From Marinobacterium stanieri (GTDB lineage: Bacteria; Pseudomonadota; Gammaproteobacteria; Pseudomonadales; Balneatricaceae), in assembly GCF_900155945.1 (NCBI RefSeq), contig NZ_FTMN01000010.1:1-64000 (forward strand): a stretch of 64,000 nt of DNA, read 5' to 3'. Below, one piece after another: positions 1,608 through 13,908 of this stretch. Below the pieces are notes generated by a model. It saw only the letters and a list, made by a program, of their open reading frames with translations. It was not told the DNA's origin and ran no database searches. The position numbers and the translations under genes were made by a program. How positions within the stretch are numbered: the stretch's first letter is position 1; every line of letters starts with the position of its first letter.

Positions 1608-1694
1608 TTGCACTATGTGCAATCACTATTGGCAAATACTAGGTTTTGCTCATAGTGTTTGTAAATAGTGCAATGATTGAGTATTTATATAGTG
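1608..1694. promoter_or_regulatory. Divergent operator array between excisionase and repressor genes
   Basis: CACTAT occurs at 1611-1616 and 1624-1629, and its complement ATAGTG at 1652-1657 and 1665-1670. Both pairs are spaced 13 bases, and all four sites are symmetric about position 1640.5. A fifth ATAGTG is at 1689-1694. The first site is embedded in the perfect palindrome TTGCACTATGTGCAA (1608-1622). This arrangement between two divergent phage genes is what an array of repressor dimers would use to switch between lysogeny and replication. The repeats are seen; binding is inferred. Confidence 0.6.
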
Positions 1695-1964
1695 TCAGAG
1701 CTAACTGATAGAGCGTTGCTATTGATAACCAAAGGCAACCTGGATGAACTGACTAGAGCCGGGGAAACGAACTATCCACGCTGGGTGAACATCAAGCGAG
1801 GACGCGCCCGAGTGGGCGCAGATGAGATAGAAACACTCGGTAAGGTTTTTCCAGAGTATCGGTGGTGGCTCATGACGGGAGAAGCTGCCCCAGAGATCGG
1901 GCAATCAAGTCCAGAGCTGGATGAGGTCCAACGCTCGGACTCAGGGAAACAGAACGCGGGTTAA
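1677..1964 (+). CDS. Inovirus repressor-C-like DNA-binding protein
   Basis: A 95-residue protein with a compact helical region (about residues 10-70) in which WVNIKRGRARVGADEIETLGKV would be the second half of a lambda-type HTH, followed by YRWWLMTGE as in small phage repressors. It is divergent from the excisionase-like gene, as repressor and xis are in Pf4-type prophages. The start is uncertain: TTG at 1677 gives the fullest HTH, GTG at 1692 is an alternative, and neither has a clear Shine-Dalgarno. Its last 25 codons recur in decayed form near 3.84 kb. Confidence 0.55.
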   Translation: MSIYIVSELTDRALLLITKGNLDELTRAGETNYPRWVNIKRGRARVGADEIETLGKVFPEYRWWLMTGEAAPEIGQSSPELDEVQRSDSGKQNAG

Positions 1965-2450: not shown

Positions 2451-3335
2451 TTATTTGCTTAAAATTAATTTCTTTCTCAACCAATAAAACAATGATCCAG
2501 AAAACAAAAGAACCCCGAATGCAAAAACATAGGAAAACCAGCTTTCTGATTCAGAAACAAAGTACGATTTCGGAATCATAATAGTGCTAAAAATTGCAAT
2601 AACATATGCATTAAAGCCCATTACTATATAAATAAAGCTCTCTCTTGAGTCTTCAGAATCGTCAAATTTAAAGTAAAAGAAAAACGCACTAAAAGCTGAA
2701 ATAAACGCTATTATTATTAGCGAATAAGTTGAAATATTTAAAACTAAAGTTTCCTTTGTTACATTTGCCCTATCTGCTGGCTCGACAATTTTCAAAGCTA
2801 AACCATGATGCCTTGGAATTTCTCTTTCTTTGATGTTTTCAACACCAACAATTCGGGCTATGGCTTTGGTAATTTCTAGTTTTTGACCACTTAGAACTGC
2901 AACAACAAACCAGTCATCTGGATTCATGAGAAGAGGATCAATGACTAATTGTCCGTTTTCAAATGAAGCACTAGCAGGTAGAGATTCTGGTGATGATATA
3001 ACTATCTTAGTTTTTAGTATCTCTTCTTTTTCCTTAAACTCAAACTTGACTGGCCCCTCGAAATCATCACTCCTAATGGGAACCTTACCCGCATTTGTTA
3101 TTTTAATAGCTGTATAAAAAACATCACTAATGGATTCGTCAGAGTTTTTTATTTCAATATCAGGCCAATAATCTAATAAAACATCACTATCAAGTAATTC
3201 ATCTTCACCAATGATCATATATTCAAGTGATTTTTTTTCTTCTAATATCCCTCCCCAAATTGGAGCCAAGAAAAAAAGCAGAACCGGAATGAATAGAGTT
3301 GCAACCCAGTGAAGGACTCTCTCCCCAGTGCCCAT
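2451..3335 (-). CDS. AT-rich membrane protein, probable inovirus cargo
   Basis: A 294-residue protein that I do not recognise. It has an N-terminal hydrophobic segment (about residues 8-28), a soluble domain of about 170 residues, and three further hydrophobic segments near 200-222, 233-256 and 265-287. The soluble part faces one side of the membrane between the first helix and the C-terminal bundle. Base composition is clearly more AT-rich than the phage genes beside it, suggesting a separately acquired passenger. It sits between the repressor-side genes and the attachment site and converges with the preceding gene. Defence or superinfection exclusion is plausible from location only. Confidence 0.5.
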   Translation of the reverse strand: MGTGERVLHWVATLFIPVLLFFLAPIWGGILEEKKSLEYMIIGEDELLDSDVLLDYWPDIEIKNSDESISDVFYTAIKITNAGKVPIRSDDFEGPVKFEFKEKEEILKTKIVISSPESLPASASFENGQLVIDPLLMNPDDWFVVAVLSGQKLEITKAIARIVGVENIKEREIPRHHGLALKIVEPADRANVTKETLVLNISTYSLIIIAFISAFSAFFFYFKFDDSEDSRESFIYIVMGFNAYVIAIFSTIMIPKSYFVSESESWFSYVFAFGVLLFSGSLFYWLRKKLILSK

Positions 3336-3590: not shown

Positions 3591-3616
3591 GGGTTCGAAA
3601 CCCGCCACCTCCACCA
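3591..3616 (+). other. Attachment-site remnant: 3' end of a tRNA/tmRNA gene
   Basis: GGGTTCGAAACCC is a T-arm sequence with loop TTCGAAA, followed by GC, the acceptor strand CACCTCC, discriminator A and CCA. Upstream bases do not complete the T-stem or any D or anticodon arm, so only the 3' end is present. A 5' acceptor strand of the GGGGGTG or GGAGGTG type would fit tmRNA (ssrA), but a tRNA cannot be excluded. A duplicated 3' end with its own terminator is the usual scar of integration into such genes. Confidence 0.7.
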
Positions 3617-3821: not shown

Positions 3822-3900
3822 GCCGTACTTGAAGTAGGACAATCGAGCCCAGAGTTTGATGAGGTCTAACACTCGGACTCAGGGAAACAAAACGCGGGTC
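3822..3900 (+). pseudogene. Decayed repressor-C tail (second inovirus remnant)
   Basis: In-frame translation reads LEVGQSSPEFDEV, then a TAA at 3867, then HSDSGKQNAG. This is the same tail as the repressor gene ending at 1964 (EIGQSSPELDEV...SDSGKQNAG) but interrupted by a stop and missing its N-terminal HTH. Upstream sequence no longer resembles the intact gene. It shows that an older, related prophage once stood to the right of the attachment site. Confidence 0.75.
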
Positions 3901-3960
3901 AAGCGTTGCTCATACGGTGATCGACCGATCGTATTCAAGGAGGAAGGAATGAGCAGAATT
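3840..3960 (+). repeat. Direct repeat copy 2 (repressor tail plus next start)
   Basis: Gap-free match to 1902-2022 at an offset of 1938 bases, including the AGGAGGAAGGAATGAGCAG translation start. After the fourth codon the two copies lead into unrelated genes. Confidence 0.85.
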
Positions 3961-4293: not shown

Positions 4294-5349
4294 ATGGCTG
4301 GTGAAACCAAAAACATATCGGAAATAGCAAATAAAGTTTCTAGAGAAATTTTTAACTTCTTCAAATGGGAAGCACAACGGCTTGAAGATGAGAATTTCCC
4401 ATGCAATAAAGGACTACTACACTCGACTAAAGAAGATTATACACACCCTGTCGACATTGTATTCAATTACATTGACCCATACACAAACAAGCGGGTTTTC
4501 ATTAATACAGATTTAAAAAGCTACAAAAACGCATCAATCACTCAAAGCAATATTAGAAAATCTCTAATATCCTTAGCTAAAACAATTGATTGTGCGCGAT
4601 CTAGTGAAGTTTGGAGGACCCGGTATGCGAGCATGCAAAATGATAGCCCTGATGTTAGAGGCATGCTTTTTGTTTACAATCATGATGGTGAATATCATAA
4701 AAAATTCTATGATTTTATTCGCTCAAGCGAAGAAAAAAAAAAATCAATAAACCTTGATAATATAAAGCTCCAGAAAGGTCAACAGCTACACATATTTGAA
4801 CCAAAACTGATCACATATCTGACCACTGTAGTATGTGATGCTAAATTACTACATCACGATGGTACATTCCCTCAGAAAAACTATTCATTTTTTTACCCTG
4901 ACTTGCGATTACATAAGGCTCACGGAGAAGAGCTAGAAAGACCGGCAACAATAGAAATACTTTCAGCGCCCTATATAATAATTAAACACGGTGATGTTAA
5001 GAAATATGATGAAGAAGCTGAAGAAAGCATAAAAACATACGATAAAGGTTATTTGATTTACTACAATAGATCAGGCTCTGATTATAAGGAGTTCATTTAC
5101 CTTTTGGATATGCTTTCAAACTTTCAGCTTCTAAATAGCAATAATAATATCAGAATCAGAATAGCGAGTGCCGAAGCTAGTTCAGAAGCTCGACCTAACT
5201 TCAAAAAAGCAGTCTCTGCATATTGCCAATCATGGGGATTTGACGAGCATAAAAAAGAAATACTTGACGCTATAGAATTTAGCCATGTAGAGACGATTCA
5301 AAAGAAATTCAGTTCTGTAGACATCGGATGGAGGCTTAACAATGTCTAA
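4294..5349 (+). CDS. PD-(D/E)XK nuclease-like protein, gene 1 of AT-rich operon
   Basis: A 351-residue protein of unknown family. Residues 51-80 carry a credible PD-(D/E)XK core: HPVDIVF with D54, then a strand and INTDLKSYKN with D73-x-K75, followed by the helix NIRKSLISLAKT. Candidate acidic residues of the first helix are E18, E26 and E31. No DNA-recognition domain or membrane segment is evident. The ATG at 4294 opens the operon; no clear Shine-Dalgarno is seen. Gene 2 overlaps it by 8 bases, so the two are coupled. Composition is strongly AT-rich compared with the flanking chromosome. Two-component systems pairing such a nuclease with an uncharacterised partner (for example GAPS4) are known; whether this belongs to one needs a profile search. 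A restriction-like or abortive effector role is inferred. Confidence 0.55.
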   Translation: MAGETKNISEIANKVSREIFNFFKWEAQRLEDENFPCNKGLLHSTKEDYTHPVDIVFNYIDPYTNKRVFINTDLKSYKNASITQSNIRKSLISLAKTIDCARSSEVWRTRYASMQNDSPDVRGMLFVYNHDGEYHKKFYDFIRSSEEKKKSINLDNIKLQKGQQLHIFEPKLITYLTTVVCDAKLLHHDGTFPQKNYSFFYPDLRLHKAHGEELERPATIEILSAPYIIIKHGDVKKYDEEAEESIKTYDKGYLIYYNRSGSDYKEFIYLLDMLSNFQLLNSNNNIRIRIASAEASSEARPNFKKAVSAYCQSWGFDEHKKEILDAIEFSHVETIQKKFSSVDIGWRLNNV

Positions 5350-6466
5350 CCTTTATTGTGCAAATGACAAAGCTATCTCTGATGCATTAAACCAAACCAA
5401 AGTCACCAAGTCTGACGTCGCTGATCTTTTCTATTCAAGAGGCATTATCCTATCTCCTGAAACTAAAAGAAAACAAGTAGCTGACCAGTTTTCAATGTTG
5501 TTTCATGATTATTATGACTACGTCAAATTATCAAGGATATTAGGTAGCACAAACAGACGAGAAAAACAGTCAGCTTCATATATAGATTCTAATCAAGTGA
5601 CATTAGATAACATAGAAGCAGCTGCCCATAACATAAATGATTCACTTAAAGACTTTGATGCAGTTTCTAATGTGAAGAGGACAGGAAACTCACTCGAGTT
5701 TGTTATTCATTACCGTGTAACCAACTTCAATGCTAGTGAATTTAGGCAAGTATCAGACCGTGAAGCAGTTATTACATTCACTGAGGAAGATGGAAAAATA
5801 TCTATCCGTGGTCCGTACAACGAGACAATAGATAAAGTAAAACAAACTCTTATCAAAGCAGTAGCGGATGAAGTTAATGATGAAGAGCATGAGAATGAAA
5901 AAGAAGACATAAATATTCAAACTATTAACCTAAGAGGAATTGAAGACTCTATAAAAAGGACAAATTTCTTCAGAAACATTGTGAACAAAATGGATGGGGT
6001 TGTACTTCATGATGTCACAGATGTATTTATCTATCATCCAAAGGTTAGTGATGATCAGGATCAGGATTTAGACTCTGAAGATGAGCAAGATATTGATATT
6101 GGTGTGCACATTACAAAAGCATCTCTCAAAGGAGAAAAGGTTCTAGAGTCAGAAGAATTACAGTCACTTTATGATAAAGGTTTCTTTATCTGGAAAATAA
6201 TTTGGCAATCGAAAGAAAATTCATATGACTCAGACATATATGAATTTGAAGCACAATTCAATGATCCAGATAATTTTGAAAACTTCACTTACTTAGCCAG
6301 GGGATTTTACAGATACAAAGCTAAAGGAGAGTACAATAATAGCAAGACTGCCTTTACAAAAAATAATGAGAGATATTTTGGGAGAAAAATAGAAAAGGCC
6401 GCAATAGAATCAATCGATATCATTTCGGCTCAAGATACCGAGGATGATGAAGATGGACAAGTTTAA
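5342..6466 (+). CDS. Unknown acidic protein, gene 2 of AT-rich operon
   Basis: A 374-residue soluble protein. Residues about 15-65 (TKSDVADLFYSRGIILSPET...) look like a short helix-extended-loop-helix or SAP-like unit that could bind nucleic acid. The central region has two acidic stretches, near residues 185-195 (EHENEKED) and 238-252 (DQDQDLDSEDEQD). The remainder alternates strands and helices with no motif I recognise. It starts 8 bases before the stop of the nuclease-like gene and its end overlaps gene 3 by about 20 bases, so all three are probably made in fixed proportion. It could be a sensor, specificity subunit or nuclease inhibitor; nothing in the sequence decides. Confidence 0.5.
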   Translation: MSNLYCANDKAISDALNQTKVTKSDVADLFYSRGIILSPETKRKQVADQFSMLFHDYYDYVKLSRILGSTNRREKQSASYIDSNQVTLDNIEAAAHNINDSLKDFDAVSNVKRTGNSLEFVIHYRVTNFNASEFRQVSDREAVITFTEEDGKISIRGPYNETIDKVKQTLIKAVADEVNDEEHENEKEDINIQTINLRGIEDSIKRTNFFRNIVNKMDGVVLHDVTDVFIYHPKVSDDQDQDLDSEDEQDIDIGVHITKASLKGEKVLESEELQSLYDKGFFIWKIIWQSKENSYDSDIYEFEAQFNDPDNFENFTYLARGFYRYKAKGEYNNSKTAFTKNNERYFGRKIEKAAIESIDIISAQDTEDDEDGQV

Positions 6467-7145
6467 ATATATAAAGGCCATAATACACCTCAATATTTTA
6501 GACACTAAAAAGTGCCTAGAAAAAAACCCTTATTCATACGATAAAAATACCGGATTTGAAATAATAGACTATGATAATAATAATATAAGCTGTAAGTATT
6601 TTGAACGTATCGTAGATGAAGAAATAATTATAGACCCTTTTGGAAACGAAATAATAAACTCATCCACAAGATATTTAATCGTGAACTTTAGGATTTTAAA
6701 TATAACAAAAAACAATTACTTACTATCAGTACAGAGTCCTCCAAGAAATCTTGGCAATATGATTGACTCGCTTTCAAGCACATTAGACAGCAATATATTT
6801 ATATCAAATATAACACTAGATATAGCTTCTTTTTACGAGCGAATACTTGAAAATAAAGAAATAGAAGATAGTCGTGTTGAAAAGATAAAATTTAAAGGAA
6901 TATCTATTAATAAAAGTTCTTCAGCAGAGTTGACCGTATCTTCTTCCAGTGATGCATACGAAGATGCACTAGATTATATAGGGCGAAAGAACTCAATTAT
7001 AAACAACATAAAAATTCGTTCTTCATACAAAGGCGAAAAAACATCTATTCTTATTTCAGAAACTTCACTTATAAACTGTAGTGAGAGCTTAACGCCTCTT
7101 ATAGAGGATATATTTGTCGATTATATTTCTGCGAGTTTAAATTGA
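6444..7145 (+). CDS. Unknown protein, gene 3 of AT-rich operon
   Basis: A protein of up to 233 residues, very rich in Ile, Asn, Lys and Ser, without membrane segments or a recognisable motif. ATG codons at 6444, 6447 and 6453 are all possible starts and lie inside the end of gene 2, so translation is probably coupled. Predicted secondary structure looks mainly beta. A strong terminator follows at 7164. It is the most AT-rich of the three genes, which suggests horizontal transfer of the whole unit. No function can be assigned. Confidence 0.5.
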   Translation: MMKMDKFKYIKAIIHLNILDTKKCLEKNPYSYDKNTGFEIIDYDNNNISCKYFERIVDEEIIIDPFGNEIINSSTRYLIVNFRILNITKNNYLLSVQSPPRNLGNMIDSLSSTLDSNIFISNITLDIASFYERILENKEIEDSRVEKIKFKGISINKSSSAELTVSSSSDAYEDALDYIGRKNSIINNIKIRSSYKGEKTSILISETSLINCSESLTPLIEDIFVDYISASLN

Positions 7146-7163
7146 TATGCTATAAAAAAATCA

Positions 7164-7196
7164 AATAAGCCGCTAAAACTTGGCGGCTTATTTTAA
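7164..7196 (+). terminator. Terminator of the three-gene AT-rich operon
   Basis: AATAAGCCGC (7164-7173) pairs with GCGGCTTATT (7183-7192) around a nine-base loop and is followed by TT. The near-symmetric A/T flanks would let it work in both directions. Confidence 0.85.
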
Positions 7197-12524: not shown

Positions 12525-13514
<990 letters not shown>

Positions 13515-13908
13515 GACACACCCTTGTTCAGCAAAGTTCAGGAACATACGTAACCGCACGCAGGTACACACCTGTAAGCCGGTTCAGACTAAAACGCCTA
13601 CAGACTGCGATGATCAGGCTTAACCGCTGCTGAGCCATCTAAAGGCGAACTCATATCCTTGGTGTAACCTACACTATAGTTGACGCAAACCTGACAAAGG
13701 TCTGCTCTTAGTGAACAATTGTGTAAACATGTGATCTGACTCCGTCGACAGACGCTATAGGTGTCTGGCAGGGTGTGCATACATTATTGCGGCATAAATT
13801 GTTACACTGTAACCGCTGACAGACTTCATCAAACCGGCTTCAGCTCATTGGTCTGAGGTTTACTTTCATTTTGGCCTGTTCCTGCGCAGGTCTCCTTGGT
13901 CAAACGCA
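13515..13908. other. Intergenic region between divergent genes, no gene seen
   Basis: 394 bases between the leftward DUF4214 gene and the rightward GGDEF gene. Short open frames here lack ribosome sites and family features. Promoters for both genes must lie here, but I cannot place a convincing -35/-10 pair. Confidence 0.5.

Follow-up and report, generated by a model that had tools for sequence, protein, structure and literature searches.

A divergent 3HP operon with a predicted nuclease beside a Pf-like filamentous prophage in Marinobacterium stanieri

Three genes near the left end of a Marinobacterium stanieri contig raise the question of whether they represent a new anti-phage defence system or a variant of a known one. 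The window, that is, the whole stretch of DNA analyzed, comprises 64,000 nucleotides (NZ_FTMN01000010.1, positions 1 to 64,000). A preliminary description had reported three mutually overlapping, AT-rich genes ending at one terminator, and the first two of these features were confirmed: the reading frames overlap on the forward strand (Table 1), the G+C content of the trio is 0.334 compared to 0.549 for the window between 8 and 64 kb, and GC3 amounts to 0.26–0.31, as opposed to 0.71–0.72 in three neighbouring genes. Regarding the terminator, a forward-strand hairpin is present behind the operon; it was absent from the output of the consensus terminator scan, which is probably explained by the location of its T run within the 3' stem arm, with none further on, and this layout makes a terminator likely rather than certain. 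The start of Hp1 agrees with the starts of its relatives, and the starts of relatives suggest that Hp3 may begin at position 6453 instead of 6444.

Table 1. Features at the 3HP locus and on contig C5 (positions refer to the window unless C5 is named).
Feature	Position	Strand	Remarks
Pf-like repressor of left prophage	1677-1964	+	66.7% identity to Pf1; phrog_147 2.1e-22
tmRNA 3'-end repeat, attR-like scar of first Pf-like prophage	3592-3616	+	25 bases, exact match to C5:5459-5483
Second, degraded copy of Pf-like repressor 3' end and leader	3837-3960	+	90% identity to 1899-2022
Hp1 ORF	4294-5349	+	351 aa
Hp2 ORF	5342-6466	+	374 aa
Hp3 ORF	6444-7145	+	233 aa
Terminator-like hairpin 3' of operon	7163-7193	+	RNA fold -17.9 kcal/mol, z -6.7
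ShosTA-like pair	C5 2833-5273	-	ShosA/ShosT matches, beside intact tmRNA

A PADLOC profile search recovered the Hp1 model for gene 1 (E = 6.5e-65, over 1–345), the Hp2 model for gene 2 (E = 6.6e-37, over 3–371), and, weakly and partially, the Hp3 model for gene 3 (E = 7.1e-5, over 4–171). One PADLOC family per protein was obtained at E-values up to 1, and the accession numbers of the three models are consecutive. We take these names to denote the components of the defence system Rst_3HP, an assignment borne out by a Vibrio phage record, in which a homologous trio carries the labels Rst_3HP__Hp1, Hp2, and Hp3; the Hp3 of the window can be aligned to the protein labelled Rst_3HP__Hp3 at 20% identity. 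In the PHROGs database, the three proteins matched, near full length, the uncharacterized families phrog_7059 (gene 1, 3.1e-123), phrog_6531 (gene 2, 1.3e-103), and phrog_5850 (gene 3, 2.5e-37). Homologues of Hp1, Hp2, and Hp3 are thus encoded in one operon in the order that characterizes Rst_3HP, and the usual, not strictly defining, trait of being prophage-encoded was also found, since a Pf-like repressor end and a Pf-like prophage adjoin the trio. The proposal of a new system was abandoned, because each of the three genes matches a 3HP model and a single catalogued system covers them all. Judged by sequence, the trio is a new, divergent member of the already described 3HP. The defensive role envisaged earlier gains support from this homology, from which defence by the window copy is predicted.

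A homologous system was reported to confer resistance to phage P1 in E. coli, as assessed with a panel of eight phages (PMC9122126); it is probably the later-named 3HP, judging from the legend (HP, hypothetical protein) and the citation of that paper by DefenseFinder. According to the DefenseFinder paper, Rst_3HP is found mostly on prophages (PMC9090908). In the passages concerned, 3HP is named without a mechanism in PMC11305592, PMC11291487, PMC10855318, PMC13101515, PMC13370402, and PMC12824646, and it also turns up in PMC13249269 and PMC13141931. A mechanistic study was not found among the literature matches listed, with subscription papers and bioRxiv being mostly outside the search. The Rst_3HP described from the E. 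coli P2-like phage hotspot (Rousset et al. 2022) resembles the window in having three genes in the same order, Hp1–3 matches, and phage-borne carriage. It differs in belonging to a P2-like phage, whereas the window trio adjoins a filamentous prophage. Compared to a Klebsiella P2-like phage copy, which is not the exact clone of 2022, the window proteins show 36–37% (Hp1), 27% (Hp2), and 18% (Hp3) identity, and Hp1 is 351 aa long as opposed to 333 aa in the P2-like copy. The trio of E. coli and Klebsiella has the portal gene of a P2-like prophage on one side and the replication endonuclease gene on the other, which fits the P2-like hotspot of the 2022 system.

BLAST searches detected relatives of Hp1 in 8 out of 50,697 phage records and in 20 out of 72,556 plasmid records (6 covering at least 80% of the query); at least 100 were detected in a scan of 84,980 species with one genome each, and at least 100 in viral contigs. 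Going by record titles, the relatives from the species scan belong, among others, to Pseudomonadota, Campylobacterota, Verrucomicrobiota, Acidobacteriota, Cyanobacteria, and Desulfobacterota. The E. coli trio has near copies in 18 out of 5,426 E. coli genomes, and among 369 genomes from the class of the window the trio was present in its own genome alone. For comparison, 171 relatives (80 genome, 80 viral, and 11 BLAST loci, the last from 28 BLAST records) were collected, not counting L001, which is the window itself; with the window added, the set comprises 172 sequences. Many are near-duplicates, and clustering by Hp1 identity at 70%, with the window among the sequences, gave 69 representatives. 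The trio was complete in 159 of the 171 relatives; in the other 12, the contig breaks off inside what remains of the operon or shortly behind it. Gene gaps had medians of -4 and -4 bases, and gene fusions within the trio were not encountered among the relatives. Since gene 3 is present wherever the contig runs far enough, the three genes are conserved together, as had been presumed, and the alternative of a two-gene core with gene 3 as an optional extension is unsupported. GAPS4, a two-gene system and the suggested counterpart of such a core, shares with the trio the idea of a nuclease plus a partner; it was not among the PADLOC results for the three proteins, and the search found no phage literature on it. 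Credible relatives of the trio were not detected among PDB sequences, either with single proteins or with ten-row profiles. In a separate observation, one relative (L123, 5998–10079) encodes an Hp2 shortened to 336 aa, and 1.3 kb, possibly an insertion, separates its Hp2 and Hp3.

The nuclease-like character previously noted for gene 1 was borne out at the motif level. Hp1 carries the motif HP-x-D54 ... D73-L-K75, and an HPxD followed after 19 residues by DxK is the layout of the PD-(D/E)XK active site. Ten residues (E4, W25, C37, H43, H51, D54, D73, K75, C100, and N129) are identical in 172/172 Hp1 sequences, window included, and the D54–D73 spacing equals 19 residues in 168 of them. The invariant D and (D/E)xK of the superfamily were therefore found as D54, D73, and K75 in every sequence, an invariance that is partly search-selected, because the peptide patterns used to find relatives include parts of Hp1. 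The 80 genome loci were retrieved by D73/K75 or the YNH stretch, leaving D54 unselected, and the 80 viral loci by HPxD or the YNH stretch, leaving D73/K75 unselected; C37, H43, and C100 were unselected in both groups, and in the 11 BLAST loci none of these residues was pre-selected. These data suggest, by motif and not by fold, that Hp1 is a metal-dependent nuclease of the PD-(D/E)XK type whose catalytic residues are D54, D73, and K75. As a weak sign in the same direction, averaged Chou-Fasman propensities around the motif follow the order helix-strand-strand(DxK)-helix-strand.

Database annotation of Hp1 was sparse. In one of the 12 E. coli entries listed, a homologue is named PD-(D/E)XK nuclease domain-containing protein, and the same protein accession appears as 'hypothetical protein' in other records. 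Pfam scans of the trio relatives (59 Hp1, 65 Hp2, and 77 Hp3 members) gave scattered weak matches, with no nuclease family among the 59 Hp1 members; NCBIfam returned no match for the window Hp1, and none of the libraries searched yielded a nuclease match for Hp1. The Hp1 profile scored 0.1% against Mrr_cat, NERD, and SduA, a test without power, given that those three reached just 0.2–0.9% against one another; the sample comprised 13/20 Mrr, 8/20 NERD, and 4/6 SduA loci, the remainder containing stops or being too short after a slice that presumed full flanks. Hp1 shares the D...DxK motif with these members of the superfamily (Mrr_cat, NERD, and SduA of Shedu) and differs from them by its invariant Cys/His set: C37, H43, H51, and C100 surround the motif and constitute a candidate metal site. 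With a median pI of 6.1, Hp1 is not a basic protein, which weighs against the charge-based role proposed below for Hp2. From the motif alone, no substrate can be deduced, and some PD-(D/E)XK effectors cut RNA; RNA instead of DNA as the substrate of Hp1 appears to us improbable.

Hp2 retains Q136, G264, and W288 in 65/65 sequences and features an acidic linker (approximately residues 228–255) of variable length, which is net acidic by at least 4 in 60 out of 69 representatives; the pI of the window Hp2 is 4.7 as compared to a family median of 5.4. The nucleic-acid-binding unit previously supposed to open gene 2 received no significant support, with single weak winged-helix or KH matches being limited to one or two of 65 members. 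In the Pfam scan of the 65 members, for which 25 out of 46 families were listed, DUF4518 was found in 7 (best 1.5e-5), and ten members scanned afterwards included none of those 7. An NCBIfam match of Hp2 to NF009144 (5.5e-4, 20 bits compared to a cut-off of 297) was judged to be due to chance. A known domain was not recovered for Hp2 in any library searched.

An acidic linker of this kind could serve as a DNA mimic, and it can be counted in favour of a toxin-antitoxin or prophage-maintenance operon, in which a toxic nuclease Hp1 would be held by Hp2 and Hp3 and defence would be a by-product. The overlapping genes in a tight operon agree with such an arrangement, as does the surrounding of the relatives: among 126 flanking proteins of 68 loci, families of mobile elements led the Pfam results (25 out of 83 families listed), with integrases, portal proteins, and S24 repressors being the most frequent. 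Screened for enrichment of defence islands, the same flanking proteins gave matches to 311 PADLOC families, which are redundant; 25 of these were listed, with 2 members each. The P1 protection conferred by a homologue (PMC9122126) speaks against this explanation, which we regard as unlikely.

Hp3 was found to diverge fastest, with a mean pairwise identity among the 69 representatives of 19%, compared to 25% for Hp2 and 35% for Hp1, and when the data were divided into seven bins by Hp1 identity, its mean was the lowest of the trio throughout. Exchange of Hp3 between systems was almost absent (2 pairs at the thresholds used among 159 loci, with the window in and L001 and L123 out), for which reason an exchangeable specificity module is not favoured. 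No library searched contained a known domain for Hp3. The label RdgC-like on a Pseudomonas phage Hp3 was not substantiated by profiles: RdgC gave no Pfam match at E 0.1 across 77 Hp3 members, and hhalign of Hp3 against 18 RdgC sequences resulted in a probability of 0.3%; a more remote structural relationship is conceivable.

These data also bear on a restriction-like explanation, which overlaps with the preferred one in accepting the same 3HP identity and proposes that an Hp1–Hp2–Hp3 complex cleaves the DNA of an incoming phage after recognising some feature of it, leaving the cell unharmed. A D...DxK motif is typical of restriction nucleases, and a methyltransferase would not be needed if the target were phage-specific; moreover, a reported member protects against P1 in the panel of eight phages (PMC9122126). 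However, specificity or modification domains were not found in Pfam or NCBIfam, and the near-absence of Hp3 swapping is likewise unfavourable. We consider this mode of action possible, though on balance doubtful, and, between direct restriction of phage DNA and killing of the infected cell, lean slightly towards a triggered nuclease.

The genomic position of the operon accords with the prophage remnants and the RNA-gene hotspot that the preliminary description had placed beside it. The prophage proved to be Pf-like and filamentous, and the RNA gene is represented by a repeat of the 3' end of the genome's intact tmRNA, which is located on contig C5; within the window, ARAGORN reported no RNA gene and Rfam no match at the gathering score. 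The repressor of the left prophage matched 22 phage records, 5 of them at 60–80% identity, and shares 63% identity with that of Pseudomonas phage 99-2; on this evidence, we interpret the leftmost 3.6 kb of the window as a right prophage arm of the Pf-like filamentous kind. Between this repressor and the tmRNA scar, an AT-rich region encodes a 294-aa protein with hydrophobic stretches (2451–3335, reverse strand), whose sole match was the uncharacterized phrog_29378 (2.3e-17) and for which PADLOC gave no match; it is perhaps cargo of the left prophage. Besides the end of the repressor, the second copy includes the leader and the start codons that come next, and the trio lies downstream of it. 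Most likely, the trio arrived with a second Pf-like prophage, the remainder of which has since been lost. The LysR gene to the right of the trio had only distant matches (at most 28% in the rows taken as loci, in 7 other genomes of the genus), and a comparison with empty sites in the genus was therefore uninformative. Farther to the right, a 348-aa ORF (12525–13571, reverse strand) contains a long Asp/Ser repeat in its middle, and its halves are presumably DUF4214-like.

Contig C5 carries an arm with Rep (35–39% identity in 8 of 27 matches listed), an integrase, and a DprA-like gene paired with a HAD-phosphoribosyltransferase gene, adjoining the intact tmRNA; the former of the pair matches ShosA (4.2e-79) and the latter ShosT (8.6e-14). 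Because the contigs break inside the prophage, we can only infer that this arm and that of the window belong to one prophage. The ShosTA-like pair would then probably reside on the other arm, and it appears to share the tmRNA island with 3HP as a second defence system.

A similar arrangement was found in the Pseudomonas filamentous phages 99-2 and 54-4 (L003 and L005), in which the trio likewise lies beside a Pf-type repressor at one phage end. In phage 99-2, it follows the repressor in the same orientation, as in the window, whereas in phage 54-4 the orientation is opposite. The small ORF between the repressor tail and the trio could not be aligned to a counterpart in phage 99-2. Both P. aeruginosa phages carry the labels nuclease related, hypothetical, and then hypothetical or (54-4) RdgC-like exonuclease, with no 3HP label in the stretch shown. 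3HP is not among the eight defence systems named in the relevant part of a survey that dealt with different Pf phages (PMC11878078).

On the whole, we consider it probable that a Pf-like filamentous prophage that integrated at the tmRNA gene brought the operon along as cargo, and that the operon constitutes a 3HP anti-phage system whose nuclease effector, Hp1, is gated by Hp2 and Hp3. Hp1 would be the effector acting on DNA, and Hp2 would bind and restrain it, its acidic linker being perhaps placed near the DNA groove. Hp3, as the fastest-changing component, would set what is sensed; charge and divergence are the features from which these roles of Hp2 and Hp3 are inferred. Upon infection by a susceptible phage, Hp1 would be released and cut DNA, and the halted infection would benefit both the resident prophage and its host. 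In a more specific version, which we put forward as a long shot, Hp1 would represent a separate zinc-holding PD-(D/E)XK branch with C37, H43, H51, and C100 as ligands, locked by the DNA-mimicking acidic Hp2 linker and freed by the fast-changing Hp3 upon meeting a phage product. To our knowledge, no three-part nuclease lock of this kind is known from other defence systems.

New here are the four invariant Cys/His residues, the acidic linker of Hp2, the fast divergence of Hp3, the location of the trio downstream of a duplicated 3' end of a Pf-like repressor, and the ShosTA-like pair, probably on the other prophage arm. For 3HP, whose anti-phage activity is reported and whose mechanism is absent from the literature searched, the alignment supplies exact candidate residues (D54, D73, and K75; C37, H43, H51, and C100) together with the Hp2 linker, and the three genes are shown to stay together across relatives. 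Furthermore, 3HP is now placed also with filamentous prophages, where cargo space is small.
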